Shown here piece by piece: positions 8,332 to 33,095 of a DNA stretch of 34,817 nt. The stretch is from an uncultured Saprospiraceae bacterium (GTDB lineage Bacteria > Bacteroidota > Bacteroidia > Chitinophagales > Saprospiraceae). The position numbers and the translations under genes were made by a program. The stretch is taken from assembly GCA_937967625.1 (NCBI GenBank), contig CALCJP010000125.1:1-34817 (forward strand). Direction: 5' to 3'. How positions within the stretch are numbered: position 1 is the first letter of the stretch; each line of letters begins with the position of its first letter. The notes beneath the pieces were generated by a model that was not told the DNA's origin, searched no databases, and saw only the letters and a program-made list of their open reading frames with translations.

Positions 8332-8352
8332 ATATTATTCGCCGTCAGAATT

Positions 8353-8400
8353 CAAAAGGGGTAAAAAAAAGCTTTGCTTTTTTTTTACCCCTTTTGTTTT
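8353..8400 (+). terminator. Strong intrinsic terminator of sppA
   Basis: CAAAAGGGGT plus an A-run and GC (8353-8372) pairs with GC, a T-run, ACCCCTTTTG (8376-8396). The arms are about 20 bp with one bulge and a 3-base loop, followed by TTTTT. The near-symmetry means it could also stop the convergent minus-strand transcript. Confidence 0.85.
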
Positions 8401-8440
8401 TATTCACTTTCGTAAAATGAAACAACTGCAACCTCCTATC

Positions 8441-8537
8441 CTCCGTCCAGCGAAGCTGCCGTCCTCCGTCATCCGTCATCCGTCCAGCAAAGCGGCCGTC
8501 ATCCGTCCAGCGAAGCGGCCGTCTTCCGTCATCCGTT
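8441..8537. repeat. 23-bp tandem repeats overlapping the end of the xth gene
   Basis: Three 23-base units occur at 8441-8463, 8478-8500 and 8501-8523. Each has a 7-base NTCCGTC module plus a 16-base CAGCGAAGCGGCCGTC-type module. Extra single 7-base modules occur at 8464-8470, 8471-8477, 8524-8530 and, degenerate, 8531-8537. The array runs into the last codons of the exonuclease gene, whose stop codon lies at 8529-8531. Confidence 0.85.
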
Positions 8538-9296
8538 GGCCATATCAAGTTCGAGCCAAACTCCACAATGGTCAGAATGAACGGCTTCATTATGATGCCC
8601 AGCGTCTTTTATTTTATCTTTTAAATTATCTGTAACGGATTGATAATCAATTCTCCAACCTTTGTTTTTGCCTCTTGAGCCAAAACGATAACTCCACCAA
8701 GAGTACTCTTGTTTTTCGGGGTGAGCGGTACGGAAGGAGTCTGTGAATCCACTTTCAAACCACTTGGTCATCCAAGCCCGTTCGTCAGGGAGGAAGCCGG
8801 AATTTTTACTTTTTGGATTGTGAATGTCGATTTCTGTGTGGGCGATATTGTAATCTCCGACGATGATCATATTGGGTCTCGTTTTGCGGAGTTCATGTGC
8901 CCAATTGAAGAAGTGATCGAGAAATCGATATTTGGCTTCTTGACGCGCTTCGCCTGAGGTGCCGGAGGGGAAGTAACAATTCAAAATCGTTAAGTCGCCA
9001 AAGTCGGTTCGGATGACTCGTCCTTCTTTATCAAACTCTTCGTTGTCGCAACCTGTTGAGACCAGGTCAGGTGCTGTTTTGGAATAGGTAGCGACGCCGC
9101 TATACCCTTTTTTCTCAGCAGAGAACCAGTTGGTTTGATAGCCAAGCGCCTCGAATTCTGAATTGTCAATTTGGTCGGGTTGTGCTTTGGTTTCTTGAAA
9201 GCAGACGACGTCGTAGTCATGCTCTTTGAGAAAGCCAATTAGGTCTTTTTTGAGGGCAGCTCTGATTCCGTTTAGGTTGTAAGAAAGGATTCGCAT
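8529..9296 (-). CDS. xth: Exodeoxyribonuclease III / AP endonuclease
   Basis: A 255-residue Mg-dependent nuclease of the EEP superfamily, acting in base-excision repair (3'-5' exonuclease and AP-site incision). The family motifs appear in order: YNLNGIRAA at the N-terminus, CFQETKAQ (metal-binding Glu), GDYNIAHTEIDIHNPKSKNSGF (catalytic Asp/Asn), WWSYRFGSRGKNKGWRIDY, and the C-terminal HSDHCGVWLELD with the catalytic Asp-His. The length is normal. The last residues (MANG) and the TGA stop run into the tandem repeat, so the extreme C-terminus seems to have been reshaped by the repeat, past the conserved fold. The gene is divergent from the sensor kinase gene (99-base gap). Confidence 0.95.
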   Translation of the reverse strand: MRILSYNLNGIRAALKKDLIGFLKEHDYDVVCFQETKAQPDQIDNSEFEALGYQTNWFSAEKKGYSGVATYSKTAPDLVSTGCDNEEFDKEGRVIRTDFGDLTILNCYFPSGTSGEARQEAKYRFLDHFFNWAHELRKTRPNMIIVGDYNIAHTEIDIHNPKSKNSGFLPDERAWMTKWFESGFTDSFRTAHPEKQEYSWWSYRFGSRGKNKGWRIDYQSVTDNLKDKIKDAGHHNEAVHSDHCGVWLELDMANG

Positions 9297-12388: not shown

Positions 12389-12428
12389 TTTGCCTTTCGG
12401 CAAATGAGTTCATTTGCCGAAAGGCAAA
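12389..12428. repeat. Perfect inverted pair of CTTTCGGCAAATG repeats
   Basis: The arms are 19 bp and perfectly complementary (12389-12407 and 12410-12428), with a 2-base spacer. They lie 2 bases after the kinase stop codon and 88 bases before the regulator gene. On the plus strand the hairpin is followed by A/G-rich sequence without a U-tract. On the minus strand a short U-tract follows. It may attenuate kinase-to-regulator read-through, but it is not a textbook plus-strand terminator. Confidence 0.85.
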
Positions 12429-17342: not shown

Positions 17343-19685
17343 TCAATAGGTTTTCAAAAACCTTCCTGAAAAAATAGTGCTACCAGAAATCAACTGAATG
17401 AAATAAGTGCCTTTCGGCAAATGCCCCACTTGGATTCGATCATATTTGTTGACCCGACGCTCTATTTGCAAAGTTCCTTTACTATCAAAAATTCGCATTT
17501 CTAATTGGTTGCCGATAGGTTCATAAAATTGAATCTCCCCAACTGCTGGATTGGGAAAAATGACAATGTCTTCCTCATCCACAAACACCCCGTCCAGTCT
17601 TGTAAATTCACATCTATCCATCACCTGCTCCTCTGTCTGACACCCCACTTCTGAATCATCGCCAAAATAGCGCCCCTCTCCCAATTCGAGATATGCACAA
17701 ACATTGGACAAAGAGCAAGCAGATAGTTTTGGGTTTTCCGAAAATTTCACGGAAGTGACAGTAGATAAATCGGCAGATTTAATACCCTCAATGCTTTCCA
17801 AGTTTTCATTGTCGTAGATTTCAAGACGCCCTCCGATTGATTTCAAATTGGGAAACTCTGGAACTGACTCCATCGCATGACTTCTAAAAATTTTAAACAA
17901 ATTTCCGACCTCTTCTAAATTGGAAAGCCCTGACATATCCGATAAATTTTCATTGATAGTGCAAGAAATTGAGTTGCTCACTTCTTTAATATTTTGAAGC
18001 CCTGTGATTCGCTTTAAGGAAGGATTGGCATGTAAAGTTAAGGTGCTCATCTGAGTTAGATTCGGAAATCCATTTAGGTCTTCCAATGATTCACAACGGT
18101 CAATTTCAAGTTCGCCCAGATGCTCCAAACTTTCGAAATGAGATAAATCAATCAATTGGTCATTATTGCCTAAATCAAGTGTGCTTCTCACATATTTTAG
18201 ATTCTCCAATCCTCTAAAATCTGTATTGGGATTGTTCACCAATCGCAACCTGCCATGTATCGAATCGAAATGTGAAAGTTGATAAAAATCCGTCATGCCG
18301 GTTGCCCCAATATTGAGATGGGAACCCAGATCTTCTATTTGCTGAAGAAAAGGAATAGAGTCCAATTTTGGACTCCCAAAAACAGAAAAACTAAAATCTA
18401 TTTTCTTCAAGTTATCAAACCCATCCACCACCTCCAGAGAGGGGTTATCAATTATTTCAATCCAATCAACTTTTGTAAGCAGCGGGAACCCTTTGGTACT
18501 TCTCAGACTATCATTATTTCTAATCAAGAGGTTGCCTTCCATCTGTGTGAGTGAATCAAAACCAGACATGTCCCTAATATTCTGGTTCTCAATTACTTGT
18601 ATCGCATCAGCAAATTTCAAATTAGACAGACCGTTCAAATTCAGTAAACGGTCGCACCCCAAAATTCGCATTCTCGTGTGGATAGAATCCAGACTTTCCA
18701 ACCCTTCGAGAGATTCAAGTAATTTGCCTTTGATGAAGAAATTATCACTTCCTTCGAAATTTTCGAGTCCTTTCAAATTTTGGAAAGTAATGTTATCCAA
18801 GTCGAAGGTTCGACCCACTTTTTTCAATTTATTGAGTGCAGACAAATCAGCTACTTTTGGGGTGGCACCAAGAATAAAATCATCCTCAACATACTCCAGA
18901 TTAGAAAGTCCGTCCAGGTTTTCCAGCCCATACAAATCGACTATTTCCAAATCCATGATTGAATCGAATTGCTGCAAAAAATCCAGATTTTGAATCAAAT
19001 AATTTTGATGAATTTGGAATCTATCTATCGCAATTAAATTGTGGAGCACATCAAACGATCTCAATGAGTCCACTTCAAGAATCGCAATTAATTCTTTAAC
19101 TTCTTGAAGGCTTTTGAGAGAATCTATATTGGATAGTTTCGGTAGGACAGACAAAAGCAAACCACCATTGACTTTCGTCAAATTTTGTAACCCATCCAGA
19201 TTTTGCAATTGAAAACAGCTATCTATAATCAGTCGATCAAGCTCACGAATGTTATTTAGACCATTTAAAGAATTAAGCTCAGGAAGATAGTTGAGTGTCA
19301 AGTTTCGAGTTATGGTATCCAAACCTCGAAGGGCTTCAATGCTTTTTAGTTTTTCACTTTGTATGATGGATAGCGAACCGACTTTTTTCAAATTTTCAAA
19401 ACCAGCCAGTGATTCCAATTGATCATTATATCTAATGATAAGACCACTACGAATCTCCTTTAAATTAGACAAGGGCGTCAAATCAACAATTGGATCATTC
19501 CCTGCCTTATCTCCCTCAATAAATAGCAGAACCTGATTAGGCAAAATCTCGCAATTCGGATATTGATTCCCGAAATTAGTGACATCACTTTGCGATAGTA
19601 GATAGGTTCTCTCGGTAGGGCATTGACCCGCAGCTGAAGAAAATAGAAAGAGCGCAAACGCAATAGTAGAGAGAAGGAATTTCAT
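17343..19685 (-). CDS. Leucine-rich/receptor-L-like T9SS surface protein
   Basis: A 780-residue secreted protein. The signal peptide MKFLLSTIAFALFLFSSAAGQ is followed by about 25 irregular leucine-rich units of roughly 22-28 residues (e.g. LNSLNGLNNIRELDRLIIDSCFQLQNLDGLQNLTKVNGGLLL). These resemble receptor L-domain repeats and should form a solenoid for binding. A short Cys-containing cap follows (SACSLSNVCAYLELGEGRYFGDDSEVGC), then a type A T9SS sorting domain in the last ~75 residues (VIFPNPAVGEIQFYEPIGNQ...HLPKGTYFIQLISGSTIFSGRFLKTY). The ligand is unknown; a polysaccharide or protein binding role at the cell surface is inferred. A CTTTCGGCAAATG repeat (17411-17423) encodes the GHLPKG part of the sorting domain. 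Confidence 0.88.
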   Translation of the reverse strand: MKFLLSTIAFALFLFSSAAGQCPTERTYLLSQSDVTNFGNQYPNCEILPNQVLLFIEGDKAGNDPIVDLTPLSNLKEIRSGLIIRYNDQLESLAGFENLKKVGSLSIIQSEKLKSIEALRGLDTITRNLTLNYLPELNSLNGLNNIRELDRLIIDSCFQLQNLDGLQNLTKVNGGLLLSVLPKLSNIDSLKSLQEVKELIAILEVDSLRSFDVLHNLIAIDRFQIHQNYLIQNLDFLQQFDSIMDLEIVDLYGLENLDGLSNLEYVEDDFILGATPKVADLSALNKLKKVGRTFDLDNITFQNLKGLENFEGSDNFFIKGKLLESLEGLESLDSIHTRMRILGCDRLLNLNGLSNLKFADAIQVIENQNIRDMSGFDSLTQMEGNLLIRNNDSLRSTKGFPLLTKVDWIEIIDNPSLEVVDGFDNLKKIDFSFSVFGSPKLDSIPFLQQIEDLGSHLNIGATGMTDFYQLSHFDSIHGRLRLVNNPNTDFRGLENLKYVRSTLDLGNNDQLIDLSHFESLEHLGELEIDRCESLEDLNGFPNLTQMSTLTLHANPSLKRITGLQNIKEVSNSISCTINENLSDMSGLSNLEEVGNLFKIFRSHAMESVPEFPNLKSIGGRLEIYDNENLESIEGIKSADLSTVTSVKFSENPKLSACSLSNVCAYLELGEGRYFGDDSEVGCQTEEQVMDRCEFTRLDGVFVDEEDIVIFPNPAVGEIQFYEPIGNQLEMRIFDSKGTLQIERRVNKYDRIQVGHLPKGTYFIQLISGSTIFSGRFLKTY

Positions 19686-20058
19686 GCTTTTTTATTTTAA
19701 AGATACGAAAAGTAAAAATACCAACTAATCCATATTGGTCAGTAGGACATCAATTTTCATTTCTCATGACTTTTTGTTGCTGCCCCTCTCCTATCTCCCA
19801 AGATTCGCAGATACCCCAATATCCAATTTTATAAACTTACGCTTTCGCGAAATGGGGCTGAGGTCAGTAGTTGTATCTGATGGATTGAATTCAAAATGAG
19901 GATTTGCGAAAAGCAGGGCGTCTGAAATAATTTAAGAATATGCTTTCATGAAGCCTTTCGGCAAATAACCTTATTTAGCGAAAGCGAAAATTAACCTAAA
20001 AACATAACCCAATTTCATTCGTTCTTTCAGCGCATTCACAAACACAAAATAACTTTCC
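19686..20058. promoter_or_regulatory. Divergent intergenic region, leucine-rich protein / TlpA-like
   Basis: A 373-base region between divergent genes, expected to hold both promoters. No gene and no clear TAnnTTTG box was found. It has three CTTTCG/CGAAAG repeat copies: 19842-19854, 19955-19967 and 19973-19986. The last two form an inverted arrangement also seen at 16266-16296. Confidence 0.5.
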
Positions 20059-24749: not shown

Positions 24750-26156
24750 TCACTTCCGAGCCTCCAGTTGCGCTCGAATTTCATTCGCTCTGTCTTCCGA
24801 CAAATCATATCCCCACATCACCCAAATGGCGAGTAAGGTGCCTGCTATTGGCAAGAAGGAGTAAAACATACGCAAACCTGTGAGCGCTCCTTCAGGCTGT
24901 TCTGCGACACCCTGAGTAAAGCCAACATAAGCCATAATCGACCCACTCAGCAACCCAGCAAATGCAGTTCCGAATTTGACCATCCACCAGTAAATCGCTC
25001 CGAAGATTCCTTCTCGACGCTTCCCCGTATTGAGTTCATCCAAGTCAATCACATCAGCAGTCATAGACATCATCAAGGTGAACAACCCGCCAATTCCAAA
25101 AGAGAAAAATGGAAGTGCGAATAAGAACAAATACGGTTTGCCCGGCACAAAAAGGAACCAGAAAAGAATGTATCCTATAATTGAGATCGCTTGCGAAATC
25201 AGGAAGGTTCTCTTCTTCCCAATTCTTTTTGACATTGCCGTAACGATTGGAATCACAATGAAAGTCGTACCTAAAGCGCCCAAACATCCATGCAAAGTTG
25301 GCCAAATTCCAGCCGCTCCTGCATCTCCACTAAACAAATAATAGACTATGATAAAAAACGAAAATGAGGCAATTGTATTAAATGAATTGAAGACCAAAAA
25401 AGTAGCCACACATAGCCTACGGAAAGGCACATTTTTAGTCGCTTCTCTAAACCCATCAAAGATTTCTGAAAAGCTACTGGACAAATTGCTGAGCGTTAGC
25501 GGCTCATAACTGGTTTCATTTTCAGTTGATTCACTTTTTAGAAATAATGCTGGAACCATCGCCATCAACATACAAGCGCCACCCACCCAAATCGACAATT
25601 CGCGAACACCGGCAGCGGAGGTTTCAAACCATGCCGGATCGTACAAAATCACCCAAAACCAAGGTGCAATCACCCATGCCCATTGACCAATCCACTGCGC
25701 AACTGCCATGATGTTGGTGCGCTCATGAAAGTCATTGCTCATCTCATAACCCATCGCCACGTAAGGCACACTAAAAATCGTCAATCCTAAATAGAAAATG
25801 ATAGACCACCCTAAAAAGTACCAAAAATTATAGTCCACGCTATTCTCTGCATAGAGCTGCCACATGAAAAAATAAGAGAGTCCCATGATAATTGCTCCAA
25901 TAAAAACGTACTGCCGACGTCGTCCATATTTGGAGCGCGTATTGTCAGAAATGAAACCCATCAGCGGGTCAGTAATGGCATCAAACAATCGAGGCAAAAA
26001 CATCAATATCCCCCACAGAAAAGGTGGGAATCCTAAGCCTTCGACCAAGACAACCATGAAAATTCCTAATGCGGCGGGAAACATTTGATTGGCGAGCATT
26101 CCCATTCCGAATGCTACTTTTTGCCCGAAAGGGACTTGCTTTGTTGGTGTACTCAT
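24750..26156 (-). CDS. GPH-family sugar/cation symporter (MFS)
   Basis: A 468-residue inner-membrane transporter with about 12 hydrophobic spans. The N-terminal signature PRLFDAITDPLMGFISDNTRSKYGRRRQYVFIGAI, with its D(x)3DP and SxxGRRR features, is typical of the glycoside-pentoside-hexuronide:cation symporter family (MelB-like), and the FTLMMSMTADVIDLDELNTGKRREGIFGAIYWWMVKFG block of the second half agrees. It should import a sugar or uronide with Na+ or H+; the substrate is not evident. The gene is divergent from the secreted esterase gene with only 90 bases between starts, which suggests shared regulation and a possible glycan-uptake function. Identical 20-base hairpins lie at both ends of the gene (24664-24683 and 26194-26213). 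Confidence 0.9.
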   Translation of the reverse strand: MSTPTKQVPFGQKVAFGMGMLANQMFPAALGIFMVVLVEGLGFPPFLWGILMFLPRLFDAITDPLMGFISDNTRSKYGRRRQYVFIGAIIMGLSYFFMWQLYAENSVDYNFWYFLGWSIIFYLGLTIFSVPYVAMGYEMSNDFHERTNIMAVAQWIGQWAWVIAPWFWVILYDPAWFETSAAGVRELSIWVGGACMLMAMVPALFLKSESTENETSYEPLTLSNLSSSFSEIFDGFREATKNVPFRRLCVATFLVFNSFNTIASFSFFIIVYYLFSGDAGAAGIWPTLHGCLGALGTTFIVIPIVTAMSKRIGKKRTFLISQAISIIGYILFWFLFVPGKPYLFLFALPFFSFGIGGLFTLMMSMTADVIDLDELNTGKRREGIFGAIYWWMVKFGTAFAGLLSGSIMAYVGFTQGVAEQPEGALTGLRMFYSFLPIAGTLLAIWVMWGYDLSEDRANEIRAQLEARK

Positions 26157-26193
26157 TTTCTCAATTTCTATTTAGCGAACGTGCAAGATAGGG

Positions 26194-26213
26194 AATTTCA
26201 CGAAAGTGAAATT
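26194..26213. repeat. CACGAAAGTG hairpin in a divergent promoter region
   Basis: AATTTCACGAAAGTGAAATT, a perfect 8-bp stem with GAAA loop, lies in the 90-base gap between the divergent symporter and esterase genes. It is identical to the site at 24664-24683. Its position would suit an operator for both genes, but the motif is common elsewhere in the window. Confidence 0.75.
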
Positions 26214-26246
26214 TGTCTTACTTTTAGCCAGCAAAAACAGATTAAA

Positions 26247-27407
26247 ATGCAAGTTCGATTCAAATTATTTTTCACCTTTCTAATTTCAAGTTGCACACTT
26301 TTAGCGCAACAAACCCTCGAAAAGTCATTGCAGCATGACGGGCTGACTCGCGAGTACACGGTTTATATACCTGCAAGTTATGATGGCACTACTGCCGTTC
26401 CGCTGTTATTCAATTTTCATGGCTTCGGCATGTCTGCCAAAGACATGTTTTTTCTCGGAGACATGCGTCCGATTGCCGACACTGCCAATTTTATTTTGGT
26501 CTATCCGCAAGGCTCCAATGATGACGATGGCAGCCCTCATTGGAATGTCGAAGGACCCAATTCCAAAAGCGACGCAGATGATTTAGGATTCACAAAAGCC
26601 ATGCTTGATGAACTGATTGCCGACTACAATATCGACCAAAAACGGGTCTATGCTTGCGGCTATTCCAATGGCGGATTTTTCAGTTTTGATTTGGCTTGCA
26701 AAATGAGTGATCGGTTTGCTGCCATAGGTTCGGTGGCTGGCACCATGCTTTTGGATAGTTACAATAATTGCAACGCGAATCACCCCACTGCCGTGATTAC
26801 CATACATGGCACCGACGATGGCGTGGTGTCTTATGGTGGCTTTCCGGGTTGGAGTTATTCAATGGATCAGGTCAATGATTTTTGGATTAATCAAAACAAC
26901 ACCTCCCCCACTCCCACGGTCGTCCAAATGCCCGATCTCAACTCCGCCGATGGCAGCACCGTCGAGTATTTTTCATGGAAAGATGGCGACGCCTGCACCT
27001 CCGTGGAGCACTATAAAGTCAATGGTGGCGACCACACCTGGCCCGATGTCAACGGCACGCCTTCCAAAACCAATGTGGATGTCAGCGCCAGCCATTTGAT
27101 TTGGGAATTTGTTTCAAAGCACAATATCGAAGGGCTGATTAGTTGTGGTTCTTCTTCCGTTCGCCCTTTCGGGCAAATGAGCGAAATCCAAGTTTTCCCC
27201 AATCCAACTGCTGGTATTTTAAATTTGAAATCTTTGCCTGCTGAGGCATACTTGACCCTTTCCTCCCTTTCGGGAAATGTCCTGCTTTCGCAAAATGCGG
27301 CAGGTGATCAACTTGACTTACGTCACAAGCATTTGCCGAAAGGCATGTATTTATTGGAGATTTCGACGAAAGTCGGAAGGGAAGTTTTTAAGATAATGGT
27401 CGAATAA
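26247..27407 (+). CDS. Secreted PHB-depolymerase/feruloyl-esterase-type hydrolase with T9SS domain
   Basis: A 386-residue secreted alpha/beta-hydrolase of the PHB depolymerase (LpqC-like) esterase family. After the signal peptide (MQVRFKLFFTFLISSCTLLAQ) come REYTVYIPASYDGTTAVPLLFNFHGFG (oxyanion region), the nucleophile elbow CGYSNGGFFSFDLACKM, VITIHGTDDGVVSYGG (catalytic Asp region) and KVNGGDHTWPD (catalytic His). The last ~70 residues (IQVFPNPTAGILNLKSLPAEAYLTLSSLSGN...LPKGMYLLEIS) are a type A T9SS sorting signal. ATG 26247 was chosen because it gives a signal peptide. Substrates could be polyesters or feruloyl/acetyl esters on plant polysaccharides. Five CTTTCG/CGAAAG repeat copies lie in its C-terminal 220 bases (27163-27377). 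Confidence 0.9.
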   Translation: MQVRFKLFFTFLISSCTLLAQQTLEKSLQHDGLTREYTVYIPASYDGTTAVPLLFNFHGFGMSAKDMFFLGDMRPIADTANFILVYPQGSNDDDGSPHWNVEGPNSKSDADDLGFTKAMLDELIADYNIDQKRVYACGYSNGGFFSFDLACKMSDRFAAIGSVAGTMLLDSYNNCNANHPTAVITIHGTDDGVVSYGGFPGWSYSMDQVNDFWINQNNTSPTPTVVQMPDLNSADGSTVEYFSWKDGDACTSVEHYKVNGGDHTWPDVNGTPSKTNVDVSASHLIWEFVSKHNIEGLISCGSSSVRPFGQMSEIQVFPNPTAGILNLKSLPAEAYLTLSSLSGNVLLSQNAAGDQLDLRHKHLPKGMYLLEISTKVGREVFKIMVE

Positions 27408-27411
27408 TATC

Positions 27412-27491
27412 CGATAGAAAAGAAAGAAATAGCTTTGGCAAATTTGGGTTATTGATCCGGAGGATGTGATAGTACTCGATAGAAAAGAAAG
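27412..27491. repeat. 15-base direct repeat pair
   Basis: CGATAGAAAAGAAAG occurs at 27412-27426 and again at 27477-27491, in direct orientation 65 bases apart. The second copy runs straight into the AGCCCC palindrome element. It might mark a target or insertion boundary. Confidence 0.65.
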
Positions 27492-27573
27492 CCCCGAAGG
27501 GGCGTTAGCACTAACCGAGGGCAGAGCCCTCGGCAAAAATGAACGCATTTGTTAGCCCTGAATGGGCGAAAGC
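27490..27573. repeat. Composite AGCCC-type palindrome element
   Basis: Two same-orientation units, AGCCCCGAAGGGGCGTTAGC (27490-27509) and AGCCCTGAATGGGCGAAAGC (27554-27573), bracket two further hairpins. These are CCGAGGGC/GCCCTCGG with an AGA loop (27515-27533) and AAATG/CATTT with an AACG loop (27537-27550). Four hairpins in 84 bases resemble a widespread dispersed palindromic element of environmental Bacteroidota. A related cluster lies at 13325-13425. It lies between the convergent esterase and pgsA genes. Confidence 0.75.
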
Positions 27574-27589
27574 AAAAACAACAAATATT

Positions 27590-28126
27590 CTAATACCGCT
27601 TCTTGCTCTCCCTGACCACTTTCACAAACGAAGTCGTGTAATGCACCATCGAGACTAAACAAAATACAACCCCAATCAATAAAAAATAATACCCCAACAG
27701 ATGCCCCCAAATGACGCCAAACATACCTGCGAAAAAAGCGGTAGTTTTCCATTTGCCGACTTTGCTGGAAGAAATGACCATGCCCTCAGAGGCAGTAAAA
27801 ATCCGAATCCCCATCACCCAAAAATCACGATTGAGAATCACCAACAACATCCAAATCGGCATATCGCCCGCAATAGCAAAAACTGTGAGAAAGGTATTCG
27901 TAAAAATCTTATCTGCCGTAAAATCAATCGATGCGCCCAATTCAGAAACCGAATTGAGCTTCCGAGCCAAATAGCCATCCAAAAAATCACTCAACCCGGC
28001 AAACGCCACGATTGCTAACAAAACCGGCACTTTATAGGGAAATTCGTAGAGATAGAGTATCGACAACGGAGCCATCAAAATTCTGGAAAAACTCGCCGCA
28101 TGAGGAACCGTTAGCTTGAATGCCAT
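27590..28126 (-). CDS. pgsA: CDP-diacylglycerol-glycerol-3-phosphate phosphatidyltransferase
   Basis: A 178-residue integral membrane enzyme that makes phosphatidylglycerol phosphate from CDP-diacylglycerol and glycerol-3-phosphate. The CDP-alcohol phosphotransferase motif D-x2-D-G-x2-A-R-x8-G-x3-D-x3-D is complete (DFLDGYLARKLNSVSELGASIDFTADK). Several hydrophobic spans (FPYKVPVLLAIVAFAGL, IWMLLVIL, FFAGMFGVIWGHLLGYYFLLIGVVFCLVSM) are as expected. The motif alone could also fit another CDP-alcohol enzyme, but the upstream pgpA gene (46-base gap, same strand), which performs the next step, supports PgsA. Confidence 0.88.
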   Translation of the reverse strand: MAFKLTVPHAASFSRILMAPLSILYLYEFPYKVPVLLAIVAFAGLSDFLDGYLARKLNSVSELGASIDFTADKIFTNTFLTVFAIAGDMPIWMLLVILNRDFWVMGIRIFTASEGMVISSSKVGKWKTTAFFAGMFGVIWGHLLGYYFLLIGVVFCLVSMVHYTTSFVKVVRESKKRY

Positions 28127-28172
28127 AGTATGTGGTTGATCTTATTTAGGGGCGCAAAGAAAAGGCGATTTT

Positions 28173-28604
28173 TTAGTTGTACCAAATAAAACATTGAATG
28201 AGCAGATTTGAGTAAATACCCGCCAAAACATCGTCAGCCATAACCCCTAAGCCGCCTTGCAGTCGTTCGGCTCTATTGATATAAAGTATTTTCGAAATAT
28301 CGAAAATTCGAAACAGAACCAGTGCCGCCAAAAAGTAGCGCCAATCAAAAGGCACAAAAAGGAGCGCAATCCACATGCCGACCAATTCATCTATCACAAT
28401 GCAACTGGCGTCTTTTTCAAATTCTTTTTCCAAATGATTGGCAGATTGAATACCCAAAAAGAAAAGAACGATAATCACAATTAGGGAAAGCCAAATCGGC
28501 ATCTTCAAAAAATAGAACAACAAACACGCCACCACACTCGCCACCGTGCCGGGAGCAAATTTTGAAAATCCTAATCCGAAAAAGGTACCAAAAAGTTGGT
28601 GCAT
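28173..28604 (-). CDS. pgpA: Phosphatidylglycerophosphatase A
   Basis: A 143-residue membrane phosphatase of the PgpA family, which removes the phosphate from phosphatidylglycerol phosphate. The family landmarks are FFGLGFSKFAPGTVASVVA, CIVIDELVGMWIAL and LVLFRIFDISKILYINRAERLQGGLGVMADDVLAGIYSNL. The segment SKILYINRAERL replaces the commoner KPxPI..xE form, but the flanking acidic and glycine residues are intact. It leads the pgpA-pgsA unit, so two consecutive steps of phosphatidylglycerol synthesis are encoded together. Confidence 0.9.
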   Translation of the reverse strand: MHQLFGTFFGLGFSKFAPGTVASVVACLLFYFLKMPIWLSLIVIIVLFFLGIQSANHLEKEFEKDASCIVIDELVGMWIALLFVPFDWRYFLAALVLFRIFDISKILYINRAERLQGGLGVMADDVLAGIYSNLLIQCFIWYN

Positions 28605-28784
28605 GGGTAATTCGTGAACGAAGATGAGATTTATTAAAATCTATCCAAACATTTTCAAAGCGGAAAGGTAAGTACCACAGCTTAAATAATCGACACATTT
28701 GTGACAAACATAATTTTCCGCCACACTGAACCAGAGGCGGAGATCATCCATTCATTGGGGAAAGTATAAAATTGAATACCAACC

Positions 28785-28949
28785 TAAGTGCTTGGACAAA
28801 AATAACCATAAGTAAATACTCACTTCTTTTTGTCCTGCTCTTTGTTATTTTTTAGTTCCGTATCTAAGGATATGCAAAGAAAAAATGCCTCGATCAGTAC
28901 AAAAATAAGCAAGCATTTATTCTATGTTTACTTTTGTCCATGCACTTAC
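28785..28949. mobile_element. MITE-like imperfect palindrome, copy 2
   Basis: The arms start TAAGTGCTTGGACAAAAATA and end TTTTGTCCATGCACTTA, and the centre is TATCTAAGGATATG. Length, centre and ends match the element at 851-1017, though the sequence has diverged. It lies upstream of the sulfatase gene and may carry its promoter or simply be an old insertion. Confidence 0.6.
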
Positions 28950-29039
28950 CTTAAATATAATCGACGTGCAACCTTTACCTTTAAACCGAATCTACCTATA
29001 CGACTCCACTACCAAAAGCAACAAAATCAAAAGTCAATC

Positions 29040-30647
29040 ATGAAAAAAACATTAACCTTTCTCCTCCTCTCCCTTTTCGTCCTTTCGGAAAATGCTCTTG
29101 CACAAGATCACCCCAACATCCTATTAGTCATCGCAGATGATTTGGGAGTCGATCACAGCAATGGCTATCACGAACCAGAAATACGACCTACTACGCCAAC
29201 CTTGGATAGTTTACGGTCAATTGGAATTACCTTCGAAAATGCCTTTGCAGCGCCTGTTTGCTCACCCACACGGGCAGCCATCATGAGTGGTAAATACGGA
29301 ATCGCCAATGGCGTCACTCGCCTGATGGTCAATTTTGACACTACTAACACCTCTATTTTTAAAGAATTAGCCACTCAAACCAATGAGGCTTATGCCGACG
29401 CAGTGATTGGAAAATGGCACCTTTCTTCCCGACCGATTGACAATAATCACCCTGCCCATCATGGAATCGATTATTTCATGGGCCCAATGGGCGGAGCCGT
29501 TCCAGATTACTTTTCATGGAACAAAGTTGAAAATGGCGTTTCATCAAGAGAGGACACTTATGCCACTACTGCTTTCACCAATGCCTCGATTGATTGGGTG
29601 AATAACCAAACCAAGCCTTGGTTTTTATGGCAAGGGCATGTTGCACCTCATACTCCCTTTCATGTGCCTCCAGCAGGAACCTATTCCATTGATGACACTA
29701 ACACAGACCTTGGGCAATTTATTGCCATGATTGAGTCCCTTGATTTTGAGTTGAATCGCTTTTTGAATTCATTGTCGGCAGCAGAGCGAGACAACACCGT
29801 AGTCATCTACATTGGTGACAATGGCACTTCCAATGAGGTGCTAAGAGACTACCCCAACAGACAAGGAAAAGGTTCTCTATATCAAGGCGGCATTCGAGTG
29901 CCTTTTATCGTTGCGGGCAAGGGCGTTTCCCGAAAGGGAGAAAGAGAGTCAGCCCTCGTGCATGTCTTAGATATTTATGCAACTATTTTAGAATTGGCAG
30001 GTGCTGATTTGCCAGGAGGCATTTATAATAGTCTGAGCTTCAAGCACTTGCTAACAGGCGAATCCGGAGCAAAGAGAAGTTATAACTATTCGGAAGTGGG
30101 AGGCAACTTCGGTACGCAGGGCTACACCATTCGCGATGATCAATACAAAATTATCAAATTTGATAGTGGAACAGAAGAGATGTATGATTTGCTCAATGAC
30201 TCCTTGGAACTCAATAATTTATTGCCCAATTTAACGCCTGATCAGCAAGCCATCAAAGCTGATTTGGAATCGGAAGCGCAAACCATCAGAACTAATTTTT
30301 GGACCTGCCGCGACCATATTCAAAATGGAGATGAGGAAGGAATCGACTGTGGAGGGAGCTTTTGTTCGCCATGTAGTAGTGGGACTAATGAGGAATCAAC
30401 CCTTGCTTTTTCAATTTTCCCTAACCCAGCGGATGGAGCAATCGCGCTTCAATTATCTACACCAGCTTCCCAAAATACACTGATTGAAATTTTCTCCCTT
30501 TCGGGAAATATCATCCATTCGACGAAAGTCGAAAAAGGGCAAACAGTTATAAACCTTAGCACCGATACTTTCAGCAAAGGCATGTACTTAGTGCAGTTAA
30601 AAACTGATAGTCAAGTAATTACGAAAAAGATATTTATCAATAAGTAA
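29040..30647 (+). CDS. Secreted sulfatase with T9SS sorting domain
   Basis: A 535-residue type I sulfatase. A signal peptide (MKKTLTFLLLSLFVLSENALAQ) precedes the sulfatase domain: NILLVIADDLG (metal-binding Asp pair), the formylglycine site at Cys74 in CSPTRAAIMSGKYG, GKWHL, and IGDNGTSNE (metal site). Residues ~415-430 hold a Cys-rich linker (CRDHIQNGDEEGIDCGGSFCSPC) of a type common in secreted Bacteroidota proteins, and the end is a type A T9SS domain (FSIFPNPADGAIALQLSTPA...FSKGMYLVQLKTDSQVITKKIFINK). ATG 29040 was chosen because it gives the signal peptide. Its substrate, a sulfated glycan or aryl ester, is unknown. The activating maturase is not in the window. CTTTCG/CGAAAG repeats lie at 29082-29094, 29926-29939, 30498-30510 and 30516-30533. 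Confidence 0.92.
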   Translation: MKKTLTFLLLSLFVLSENALAQDHPNILLVIADDLGVDHSNGYHEPEIRPTTPTLDSLRSIGITFENAFAAPVCSPTRAAIMSGKYGIANGVTRLMVNFDTTNTSIFKELATQTNEAYADAVIGKWHLSSRPIDNNHPAHHGIDYFMGPMGGAVPDYFSWNKVENGVSSREDTYATTAFTNASIDWVNNQTKPWFLWQGHVAPHTPFHVPPAGTYSIDDTNTDLGQFIAMIESLDFELNRFLNSLSAAERDNTVVIYIGDNGTSNEVLRDYPNRQGKGSLYQGGIRVPFIVAGKGVSRKGERESALVHVLDIYATILELAGADLPGGIYNSLSFKHLLTGESGAKRSYNYSEVGGNFGTQGYTIRDDQYKIIKFDSGTEEMYDLLNDSLELNNLLPNLTPDQQAIKADLESEAQTIRTNFWTCRDHIQNGDEEGIDCGGSFCSPCSSGTNEESTLAFSIFPNPADGAIALQLSTPASQNTLIEIFSLSGNIIHSTKVEKGQTVINLSTDTFSKGMYLVQLKTDSQVITKKIFINK

Positions 30648-30656
30648 TTTTTTTTT

Positions 30657-30711
30657 ACCACAAAAGAAGGCACAAAAGTTTTTGAAATCTTTTTGTGCCT
30701 TCTTTTGTGGT
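30657..30711. repeat. Long perfect hairpin after the sulfatase gene
   Basis: ACCACAAAAGAAGGCACAAAA (30657-30677) is perfectly complementary to 30691-30711, with a 13-base loop. A T-run lies before the stem, not after it, so a textbook terminator is not shown. A similar CACAAAAG word appears widely in Bacteroidota genomes. It could still block read-through into the malic enzyme gene. Confidence 0.65.
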
Positions 30712-30764
30712 TAAAATTCCTCCTTTGAAAGTAATACCTTCGCGCCCCTAAAAACCTAACAAGG

Positions 30765-33050
30765 ATGAGTAAAAAAAGTCTAAAGAAAGCTGCACTCGAA
30801 TACCACCAAAAAGGAAGACCTGGCAAAATTGAAGTCATTCCGACAAAAGAAACTGCCACTCAGAGGGACTTGTCTTTGGCCTATTCACCTGGCGTTGCAG
30901 AGCCCTGTTTAGAAATCGAAAAAAAACCTGAAACCGTTTACGACTATACTGCAAAGGGCAACCTCGTAGCTGTCATCAGCAATGGAACGGCAGTGCTTGG
31001 ATTGGGAGATTTAGGACCAGCAGCAAGCAAACCGGTGATGGAAGGAAAAGGGCTGCTTTTCAAAATCTATGCAGACATTGATTGTTTTGATTTAGAATTA
31101 GACACGAAAGATGTTGACGAATTTGTCAGAACTGTAAAGATTTTGGAGCCTACTTTTGGTGGCGTAAATTTGGAAGACATCTCGGCCCCAAACGCTTTCG
31201 AAATCGAAGAGCGTCTTAAAAAAGAACTCAACATCCCCGTCATGCATGATGATCAGCATGGCACTGCAATCATCTCCGGAGCAGCCCTACTCAACGCCTT
31301 AGACATTGTTGGAAAAGACATTTCAAAAGTAAAAATTGTGATCAATGGCGCCGGTGCTTCTGCAATCTCTTGCACACGGATTTATATTTCGTTAGGCGCG
31401 AAGCGTGAGAATATTTTCATGTTTGACAGTAAAGGATTGATCCATCCAGATCGGGACAACCTGACTGGCAAAAAACCTGAATTCGTCAATGGAGCAGTAC
31501 CTGCTTCCACTTCCCTTTCAGAAATATTGAACGGCGCAGACGTATTCATTGGGCTTTCGCGAGGCAACATTTTAAATAAAGACATGATAAAGCCCATGTC
31601 ACCTAATCCGATCATCTTTGCGATGGCAAATCCGACGCCTGAGATTGCTTACGAAGACGCAAAGGAAGCTCGTCCTGATTGCATCATGGCAACCGGGCGC
31701 TCTGATTATCCTAATCAGGTCAATAATGTGCTGGGGTTTCCATTCATTTTTAGAGGGGCGCTTGATGTGCGTGCCACGGAAATCAATGAAGCGATGAAGT
31801 TAGGCGCCGTTAGGGCTTTGGCAGATTTGGCAAAAAAACCAGTTCCCGAAATCGTCAACATGGCTTACAATAATGTCCAGATGACTTTTGGGAAGGATTA
31901 CATCATACCCAAACCGGTTGATCCAAGATTGATTTCGATTGTGGCTCCGGCAGTTGCCAAAGCAGCTATGGAGTCAGGAGTCGCAAAGCAACCCATCAAA
32001 AACTGGGAACAATATGAAATCGAACTACAAAAGCGTCTCGGCAACGATCACTCCCTCTCCAAAATCATCCAATCAAAAGCCAAGCAAGATTTAAAGAAAA
32101 TTGTTTTCGCTGACGCTGAAAATATACCTATCCTCCGCGCTGCACTTGAGGTCGTAGAAGACGGAATTGCAAAACCGATCTTGTTGGGAAACATCCATGC
32201 TATAAAAAAGCTGATGGAGGAAAACAATATTGATTTGCCTCAGGTACCCATCATCGATCCTAAGACCCATGTTGATACCAAAGCCGCCCAAACCTTCGAG
32301 GATTATGTTGAGCGATTCTATCAAAAAAGGAAACGTAAAGGTTTACTGAAAGCCGAAGCACGTCACTATATGTCTACCCGAAGCAGCTACGGCGCCATGA
32401 TGGTTGAAACGGGGGCCGCCGATGCGATGATTGGTGGACAAAGTCGCAAATTTGCAGATACGCTCAAACCTGTTCTTCAAATTGTTGGAATAAGAGAAGG
32501 CGTAGAAAAAGTCGCAAGTGTTCACATTGCCATGACTAAAAATGGTCCTCTATTTTTAGCAGATACAGCCATCAATCATTTTTTGAATGCCGAGGATATT
32601 GCCAATATCACGGAGCTGGTAGCAGAGAAAGTTCGCCAATTCAACATCGAACCTAAGATAGCTTTAGTCACTTACTCCAACTTTGGCTCAGTGCCAAAAG
32701 GAAAGTCAGGTATCCTCATGCGAACCGCCACCAAAATCATCCATGAACGTCATCCTGATTGGATCGTTGATGGTGAAATGCAAGCCCATTTTGCACTTAA
32801 CCCCGAACTATTGGAACAATATTACCCATTCTCCAAATTGACTGGACATCGCACCAATACCTTGATTTTCCCAAGTCTCTCCTCGGCCAACCTTGCCTAC
32901 AATCTCCTCAGTAGCGTAGGCGAACTTGACATTATTGGACCTATAATTTTAGGACTAAAAAGACCGGTGCACATTCTTCAGCCCGGAGCTACGGTCAGAC
33001 AGATTGTGGATATGGTGGGAATTGCAGCTATTGATGCGCAGTCAATCTAA
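30765..33050 (+). CDS. maeB: NADP-dependent malic enzyme with phosphotransacetylase-like domain
   Basis: A 761-residue enzyme that decarboxylates malate to pyruvate and CO2 with NAD(P)+. The N-terminal malic domain holds [15 protein letters not shown] (catalytic Tyr), [17 protein letters not shown] (metal-binding acidic residues) and [11 protein letters not shown]. The NAD-binding domain starts near residue 192 ([33 protein letters not shown]). From about residue 425 follows a phosphotransacetylase-type domain ([32 protein letters not shown]...[23 protein letters not shown]). In E. coli MaeB this domain is regulatory and binds acetyl-CoA rather than being an active transacetylase. The length matches the fused form exactly. 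The gene is convergent with the hydrolase at 33112, with a perfect inverted repeat between them. Confidence 0.96.
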
Positions 33051-33061
33051 ATTTCTTTTCT

Positions 33062-33095
33062 CGCTTTCGCGAAATGACCTCATTTCGCGAAAGCG
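33062..33095. repeat. Perfect inverted pair of CTTTCGCGAAATG repeats
   Basis: Arms of 16 bases (33062-33077 and 33080-33095) with a 2-base spacer lie in the 61-base gap between convergent genes. The position suits a bidirectional terminator, but neither strand has a proper U-tract after the stem. Confidence 0.85.

Follow-up and report, generated by a model that had tools for sequence, protein, structure and literature searches.

Words shared by T9SS sorting domains of an uncultured Saprospiraceae bacterium as copies of a genome-wide, hairpin-forming DNA motif

The window considered here, a 34,817-nucleotide stretch of contig CALCJP010000125.1 (assembly GCA_937967625.1) from an uncultured Saprospiraceae bacterium, encodes an esterase, a sulfatase and a leucine-rich protein that each carry a type IX secretion system (T9SS) type A sorting domain, matched by PF18962 and TIGR04183 over their curated cut-offs. 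The original prediction for this DNA had reported copies of a short word clustered in the sorting-domain coding sequence, and had proposed either that the domains exchange segments or that the word is tolerated in them. The shared words are almost certainly copies of a motif found throughout the genome and not products of exchange. Each copy is able to fold as a DNA mini-hairpin with a stem of at least 2-3 bp and a GNAA loop, located behind a T-tract. The features of the window are as follows.

12392..12425: intergenic divergent motif pair, cores 24 bp apart
17343..19685, minus strand: leucine-rich / receptor-L-domain protein with T9SS type A sorting domain
17409..17422, minus strand: motif copy ATTTGCCGAAAGGC; HLPKG, sorting domain of the leucine-rich protein
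19953..19986: intergenic divergent motif pair, cores 24 bp apart, stem bases differ (GC and AG)
26195..26208, plus strand: motif copy with 8-bp stem, upstream of the likely esterase start
26244..27407, plus strand: polyhydroxyalkanoate-depolymerase-type esterase with T9SS type A sorting domain (residues 317-386)
27164..27177, minus strand: motif copy TTTGCCCGAAAGGG; PFGQ in the esterase, just ahead of the sorting domain
27265..27278, minus strand: motif copy ATTTCCCGAAAGGG; SLSGN, conserved G of the esterase sorting domain
27283..27296, minus strand: motif copy ATTTTGCGAAAGCA; LSQN, esterase
27315..27328, minus strand: weaker motif copy, loop GTAA, esterase
27331..27344, plus strand: motif copy ATTTGCCGAAAGGC; HLPKG, conserved G of the esterase sorting domain
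27361..27374, plus strand: motif copy TTTCGACGAAAGTC; STKV, esterase, non-conserved position
29040..30647, plus strand: sulfatase with T9SS type A sorting domain (residues 459-533)
29080..29093, minus strand: motif copy in the sulfatase signal-peptide codons, also present in the genus relative G001
29925..29938, plus strand: motif copy GTTTCCCGAAAGGG within the sulfatase (SRKG)
30496..30509, minus strand: motif copy ATTTCCCGAAAGGG; SLSGN, sulfatase sorting domain
30517..30530, plus strand: motif copy ATTCGACGAAAGTC; STKV, sulfatase
33062..33095: intergenic divergent motif pair, cores 24 bp apart

All eight words first reported carry CGAAAG or its complement CTTTCG and encode the peptides originally given, with start points off by no more than a few bases; the weaker copy with the GTAA loop was absent from that list. 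Chance levels for the window were taken from 200 second-order Markov simulations. Seven core hexamers occur within 27163-27407 and 30400-30647 together, compared to a simulated mean of 0.39 and a maximum of 2, and the window as a whole contains 57 motif-like sites (defined by a formed inner pair and at least two T upstream) compared to a mean of 3.4 and a maximum of 14. CGAAAG is the most over-represented hexamer of the window by Markov z-score; the top octamers, GCGAAAGC, ACGAAAGT and CCGAAAGG, consist of it with complementary flanks.

The architecture of the motif was determined in the organism's own genome assembly (G000; 3.08 Mb in 278 contigs, 64% complete), with a main sample of 323.6 kb consisting of the window and 20 further stretches. 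The consensus reads ATTT-NN-C-GNAA-G-N'N'-AAA with an A-rich tail, in which NN and N'N' vary between copies yet stay largely complementary. A stem-loop scan of this sample, scoring loops of 3 to 6 nt, singles out the GAAA loop with 279 stems of at least 4 bp where 28.5 were expected, followed by GTAA (38 vs 9.8), GACA (32 vs 8.5) and GGAA (40 vs 14.9). At 579 CGAAAG cores, complementary flanking bases are seen one, two and three positions out in 75%, 65% and 54% of cases (28%, 29% and 36% expected), with a T-tract on the outer left flank and an A-rich tail on the right. Counts of the inner pair by T-tract and loop type, taken from 447 kb, show Watson-Crick pairing in 369/378 CGAAAG sites with TTT upstream, and likewise for the loops GGAA (41/46), GTAA (33/35), GCAA (20/23) and GACA (10/12). 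All 16 stem dinucleotides were found in paired form. Six examples of 6- to 8-bp hairpins gave -4.5 to -5.8 kcal/mol on either strand with DNA energy parameters. By the pairing counts, the base pairing of the stem is a real property of the motif.

Pairing around CGAAAG drops as the T-tract shortens, from 156/198 sites with two T to 40/108 with one and 23/107 with none, and other C....G cores after TTT have a Watson-Crick inner pair in only 368/1316 cases. Since pairing falls without the T-tract or with other cores, the covariation belongs to the composite motif and not to stable hairpins in general. These counts bear on a mutational origin, in which stable GNAA-loop hairpins would complete their own stems by intrastrand template switching. 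The nearly perfect inner pair would suit such a by-product, however CGAAAG loops lacking the T-tract show no excess over the 28% background and the words are conserved between species, making this explanation most improbable.

The motif is spread over the whole genome: CCCTTTCGGG occurs 494 times in the assembly compared to once for its reversed control, and the 323.6 kb contain 502 motif-like sites, approximately one copy per kb on both strands. The two orientations are even (252 vs 250), also when compared among the 21 stretches of 8-35 kb (chi2 6.0, 21 df). Chi- and KOPS-type sites are polar, and a motif of that type was rejected for the lack of orientation bias along the stretches. With genes called simply as long open reading frames (ORFs; 86% of the sequence), 332 sites are coding and 170 non-coding, a 34% share that is somewhat too high because the caller missed the esterase, whose copies were therefore counted as non-coding. 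The count within the window, which uses hand-chosen genes and is free of this fault, places 36 of the 57 copies in approximately 29 kb of genes and 21 in the 5.5 kb between them. Along genes the copies are distributed nearly evenly, with 46/332 in the last tenth and 26-37 in each other tenth. Conserved genes of the window, the sulfatase included, hold 10 copies in 14.3 kb compared to 25 in 15.5 kb for the others (p = 0.027), or 6 in 12.7 kb compared to 29 in 17.1 kb when the sulfatase is placed among the unconserved genes. The motif is therefore commonest where constraint is weak, in non-coding DNA and in tolerant domains such as the T9SS sorting domain.

Density between genes is little affected by their orientation (3.3-4.9 sites per kb). 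A role as transcription terminator was considered and rejected: the 30 minus-plus motif pairs spaced 20-30 bp apart occur in all gene contexts (7 '-+', 7 '--', 6 '++', 6 '+-', 3 inside an ORF and 1 undetermined), and terminator-like sites in 26000-31000 are at chance level (6 vs 6.0).

GNAA loops belong to the GNRA class of tetraloops, and the motif could accordingly be a signal at the RNA level, a GNRA-tetraloop hairpin in transcripts. The outer pair offers some support, as G-T and T-G mismatches on the GAAA strand (47 vs 74 expected) are less depleted than A-C and C-A mismatches (11 vs 55 expected), a hint that folding takes place on the GAAA strand. Coding copies are, however, equally sense and antisense with respect to GAAA (162:170) and are present in all six frame and orientation classes. 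GNGA loops, also of the GNRA class, and GNTA loops show no enrichment with TTT among the few sites of each (GNGA paired in 3/6), whereas GACA loops are enriched, and no Rfam match at gathering score was found in the window. An RNA-level signal is consequently judged improbable.

The clustering in sorting domains proposed originally was borne out in a sample of 70 of the 144 TIGR04183 matches of the genome (E <= 0.001), chiefly the best-scoring together with others on the fetched stretches. These domains contain 55 sites in 15.5 kb compared to 56 in the 60.2 kb just upstream in the same proteins (3.55 vs 0.93 per kb; Fisher p = 9e-12), supporting the view that the motif is tolerated there. The 30 top-scoring sorting domains of the genus relatives G001 and G003 contain 3 sites in 6.6 kb, compared to 4 in 24.6 kb upstream (p = 0.17). 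The reading frames of the motif suit the domain's own consensus, spelling HLPKG and SLSGN at two conserved glycines. In 11 of the organism's own domains the motif lies at the conserved glycine of L-P-x-G-x-Y, and a histidine precedes the leucine in 9/11 of these compared to 2/58 own domains without the motif and 3/30 sister domains. CAT-TTG-CCG-AAA-GGC is the motif read in frame, and the site-picking rule made no use of the C and A of CAT. LPKG is encoded by TTGCCGAAAGGC in 13/13 own cases compared to 1/4 sister cases, and LSGN is spelled CTTTCGGGAAAT in 8/10 own cases. The motif may simply build up in sorting domains at places where it reads as HLPKG or SLSGN, peptides that the domain would accept.

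That sorting domains exchange short DNA segments, of which the words would be a remnant, was the other half of the original prediction, and the same words do appear in different proteins. Across the 11 motif-carrying domains, DNA identity in the motif codons is 0.88-1.00, a value that is high by choice of motif carriers, and falls to 0.41 and 0.39 in the codons flanking the motif. With this fall one codon outside the motif there is no sign that longer segments are exchanged. Neither similarity uniform along the domain nor synonymous variation in motif codons equal to that of their neighbours was observed. Further out the profile is not quite level. In favour of exchange, there is a slight rise in identity 3-5 codons past the LPKG word; the conserved tyrosine codon stands at 0.94 in motif domains (0.73 in own domains lacking the motif), and the next three codons at 0.57-0.66 (0.34-0.48 where the motif is lacking). 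In blastn comparisons of domain against domain, most significant matches among motif carriers span 19-44 nt and are centred on the motif, and near-full-length matches link only a few paralogues. STKV lies at different domain positions in the esterase and the sulfatase. Leaning toward exchange, one G003 sorting domain is 75% identical to the last 158 nt of the sulfatase with both words present; the likeness is relatedness of the whole domain, and it shows that the two sites did not first arise in this species. As the same words also occur genome-wide, outside the sorting domain and between genes, exchange is scarcely credible as their source. The original interpretation was thus supported as to tolerance and not as to exchange, and missed that the motif is genome-wide, occupies either strand in any frame and has variable positions that base-pair.

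The origin of individual copies was examined in orthologues. Own sites that are unshared with genus relatives lie in gap-free codon alignments where the differences are substitutions, and no indel was found at any of the 9 unshared unique ortholog comparisons; 2 of the 11 unique comparisons share the site (sppA in G003 and the sulfatase signal peptide in G001). Amino-acid identity in these alignments is 39/68 in motif codons compared to 7660/10468 elsewhere, with one gene (HK) counted three times. In genus g27 the word TT...CG.AAG of G031 is kept in 31/44 comparisons with its congeners G158 and G229 at 80% DNA identity, compared to 34/125 for 29 permuted control words, each site being compared with up to two genomes. 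Given the substitution-only differences and the retention between species, copies of the motif arise through point mutation and are kept afterwards, whether by selection or by drive; in the few orthologues compared, they arose by substitution on the spot.

These alignments also bear on a mobile or repetitive extragenic palindrome (REP)-like element, whose hairpin would be read by an HUH/Y1 transposase and which would spread by insertion. In REP anatomy a short conserved sequence accompanies the hairpin at its 5' side; these elements arrive by insertion, lie mostly between genes and are associated with a Y1 transposase. The motif hairpin with its conserved 5'-side sequence resembles this anatomy and that of REPs with their associated tyrosine transposases (RAYT). 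It differs in that unshared coding copies sit in gap-free ortholog alignments, arising by substitution in the orthologues compared, and in that approximately two thirds of copies lie inside called genes in all frames. The assembly itself has four Y1_Tnp (PF01797) matches, however among 33 genomes none was found in the motif-enriched G033, G159, G165, G254 and G115, while several unenriched genomes have matches. A link to the Y1/REP transposase is therefore unsupported by the presence or absence of Y1_Tnp, and an element of this type is considered highly improbable.

Several repeats and hairpins of other kinds were encountered. The triloop palindrome GCCCCGAAGGGGC at 27491-27503, between the esterase and the next gene, is a different feature from the motif, since the CGAAG triloop shows no stem excess in the 323.6 kb. 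An intergenic element of approximately 170 bp upstream of the sulfatase (28781-28958) has many copies in the genus relative G004, at up to 96% identity, and also matches G001 and G003, partly on both strands, as a dispersed, partly inverted repeat. A short intergenic stretch at 8443-8537 has at least seven matches in G001 (76-92% identity) and is repetitive DNA, as the ORF over it (8345-8590) shows repeated TDDG-like peptides in translation. In G031 two short stretches (L053 9147-9220 and 5447-5511) match dozens of places in G158 and G229 and are dispersed repeats of that genus.

The distribution of the motif was surveyed by counting TTTNNCGNAAG against a backward control in 248 genomes of the family, an undercount in that this word misses part of the dialects. 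At least a fourfold excess was found in 17/248: G000; G031, G158, G229; G033, G159; G065, G165; G103, G193; G109, G198, G254; G185; G115, G204; and G205. The remaining genomes are mostly near 1-fold, some 2 to 4, and G034 is near 1 by this count yet has paired TTC-GG-CGAAAG-CC sites with C at -3. The same architecture with other preferred bases was found in G031, G159, G165, G103, G109, G185 (6 sites) and G115 (12 sites), where the inner pair is formed in 83-100% of sites compared to the 36-72% that base composition predicts. The bases favoured in stem and loop differ among G031, G159, G103, G109 and G115, constituting dialects; G031 uses the loops GCAA (43/108) and GAAA (37/108) about equally, and GG..CC is present in 7/12 sites of G115. 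Eighty named-genome loci of approximately 7 kb, too short for a clear signal, contained 81 sites compared to a control mean of 49.6. Malic enzyme, present in 23/30 genomes with several kinds of match, was unsuitable as a species-tree marker and rpoB was used instead. A quick rpoB tree with 30 genomes intermixes the high and low ones, requiring 6 changes by parsimony, at least 4 of them forced by starred branches.

Uptake sequences are the nearest functional class, since reports on the DNA uptake sequence (DUS) or the uptake signal sequence (USS) describe dialects, flanks rich in A and T, copies in inverted pairs, an excess in non-coding DNA and scarcity in constrained coding sequence. Of the features of this class, the motif has the abundance, at approximately one copy per kb with both strands used, the scarcity in constrained coding DNA with an excess in intergenic or tolerant DNA, and the dialects. 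Our leading reading, to which we give a probability of roughly 0.45, is that the motif may be a self-DNA recognition tag of the uptake-sequence type, spread by biased transformation and read partly as a hairpin. In natural transformation, DNA richer in copies or with better ones would be taken up or processed preferentially, and recombination would spread copies through the genome by molecular drive; the base-paired positions would be read on the incoming or processed GAAA strand, single-stranded and folded. The fuller proposal is doubtful: a structure-coded identity tag, in which the feature recognised is a T-tract followed by a DNA mini-hairpin with a GNAA loop, a fixed closing C-G and a stem of any sequence that pairs. 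It would be read on the single strand in folded form, would have spread by biased transformation in several Saprospiraceae lineages, and would be strong enough to rewrite protein residues.

According to PMC3630211, a genome of the Neisseriaceae can hold DUS copies in the thousands, the family has several dialects while some of its members lack an obvious motif, and the encoded amino acids are constrained; neither "hairpin" nor "single-stranded" occurs in the text of that paper. The high copy number, the dialects, the members without an obvious motif and the motif-constrained amino acids are common to the present system. DUS is a fixed short word, whereas here two stem positions are free but paired and the loop base is variable. 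For the USS of Pasteurellaceae, the portions of PMC7811141 consulted give approximately 1,465-2,206 copies per genome, a core plus AT-tracts, and under-representation in constrained coding sequence, and those of PMC2346458 give inverted pairs and 47-70% of copies coding where 84-89% of the sequence is coding. The likeness extends to a high copy number, a core with AT-rich flanks, inverted pairs and scarcity in constrained coding DNA, the difference being the internal base-paired variable stem in place of a fixed core. USS is recognised as double-stranded DNA. PMC4390886 describes HIP1 of cyanobacteria as a short symmetric motif of great abundance, which reaches high levels in most, though not all, cyanobacteria. 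The present motif resembles it, to that extent, in abundance, symmetry and exceptions among relatives. Unlike HIP1, which is one perfect 8-bp palindrome with associated methyltransferases, it has a loop, a T-tract and variable paired bases. Within the Bacteroidota, excerpts of PMC7965970 report that Riemerella columbina prefers its own DNA, and give only candidate k-mers for Riemerella and Flavobacterium. No description of such a motif was found in the titles and abstract beginnings of the one open-access library searched.

Several observations weigh against a self-DNA tag. The primary sequence is not fixed, with two stem positions free but paired and a variable loop base, and we know of no uptake sequence that is base-paired within one copy, the known ones being fixed sequences. 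No receptor, ComP-like or other, and no competence phenotype is known here, no receptor search having been made. ComEC, detected in 28/30 genomes, fits the uptake reading to that extent, yet it occurs both with and without motif enrichment, the genomes in which it was missed being G254 (enriched) and G004, and is uninformative. Outer-pair A-G, T-T and A-A mismatches are not depleted, so the hint as to the folding strand is weak. Within genus g27 the inner pair is almost invariant and no convincing compensatory double change was found; two were flagged, and a single repeat-like sequence pair accounts for both. On the rpoB tree, high and low genomes group together more than shuffled labels do (8/500 shuffles as low), therefore part of the distribution is simple descent.

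The arrangement of copies raises a further difficulty, in that the 323.6 kb contain 22 divergent neighbour pairs with an exact 24-bp core spacing, which could point to a dimeric binding protein; intergenic examples elsewhere in the genome lie at L016:1374 and L025:7084, and the members of a pair often differ in stem bases. These pairs, the genome-wide scatter, the paired stem and the conservation between species would all suit a site that a protein of the nucleoid, of replication or of repair binds throughout the chromosome, reading the folded hairpin, cruciform or single-stranded, with no role in uptake. This explanation is unlikely, though it deserves serious attention: the even orientation differs from polar sites, and the exact 24-bp pair occurs once in 100 kb of G031 and not at all in small samples (16-61 kb) of seven other genomes. 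The patchy occurrence among close relatives, 11.9-fold in G000 compared to 1.8-2.0-fold in its genus mates G001, G003 and G004, also suits a dispensable signal better than a core chromosome function.

Whatever the function, a caution for annotation follows: a DNA motif dictates peptides such as HLPKG and SLSGN that this genome's secreted proteins have in common, and such shared peptides alone are no evidence of exchange or of selection at the protein level. If the uptake reading is true, the motif would be the first established uptake-type signal in Bacteroidota known to us, and one that keeps base pairing inside the motif rather than sequence, pointing to recognition of a single strand. High and low genomes occur together within one genus, and this patchiness provides natural contrasts for finding the receptor.

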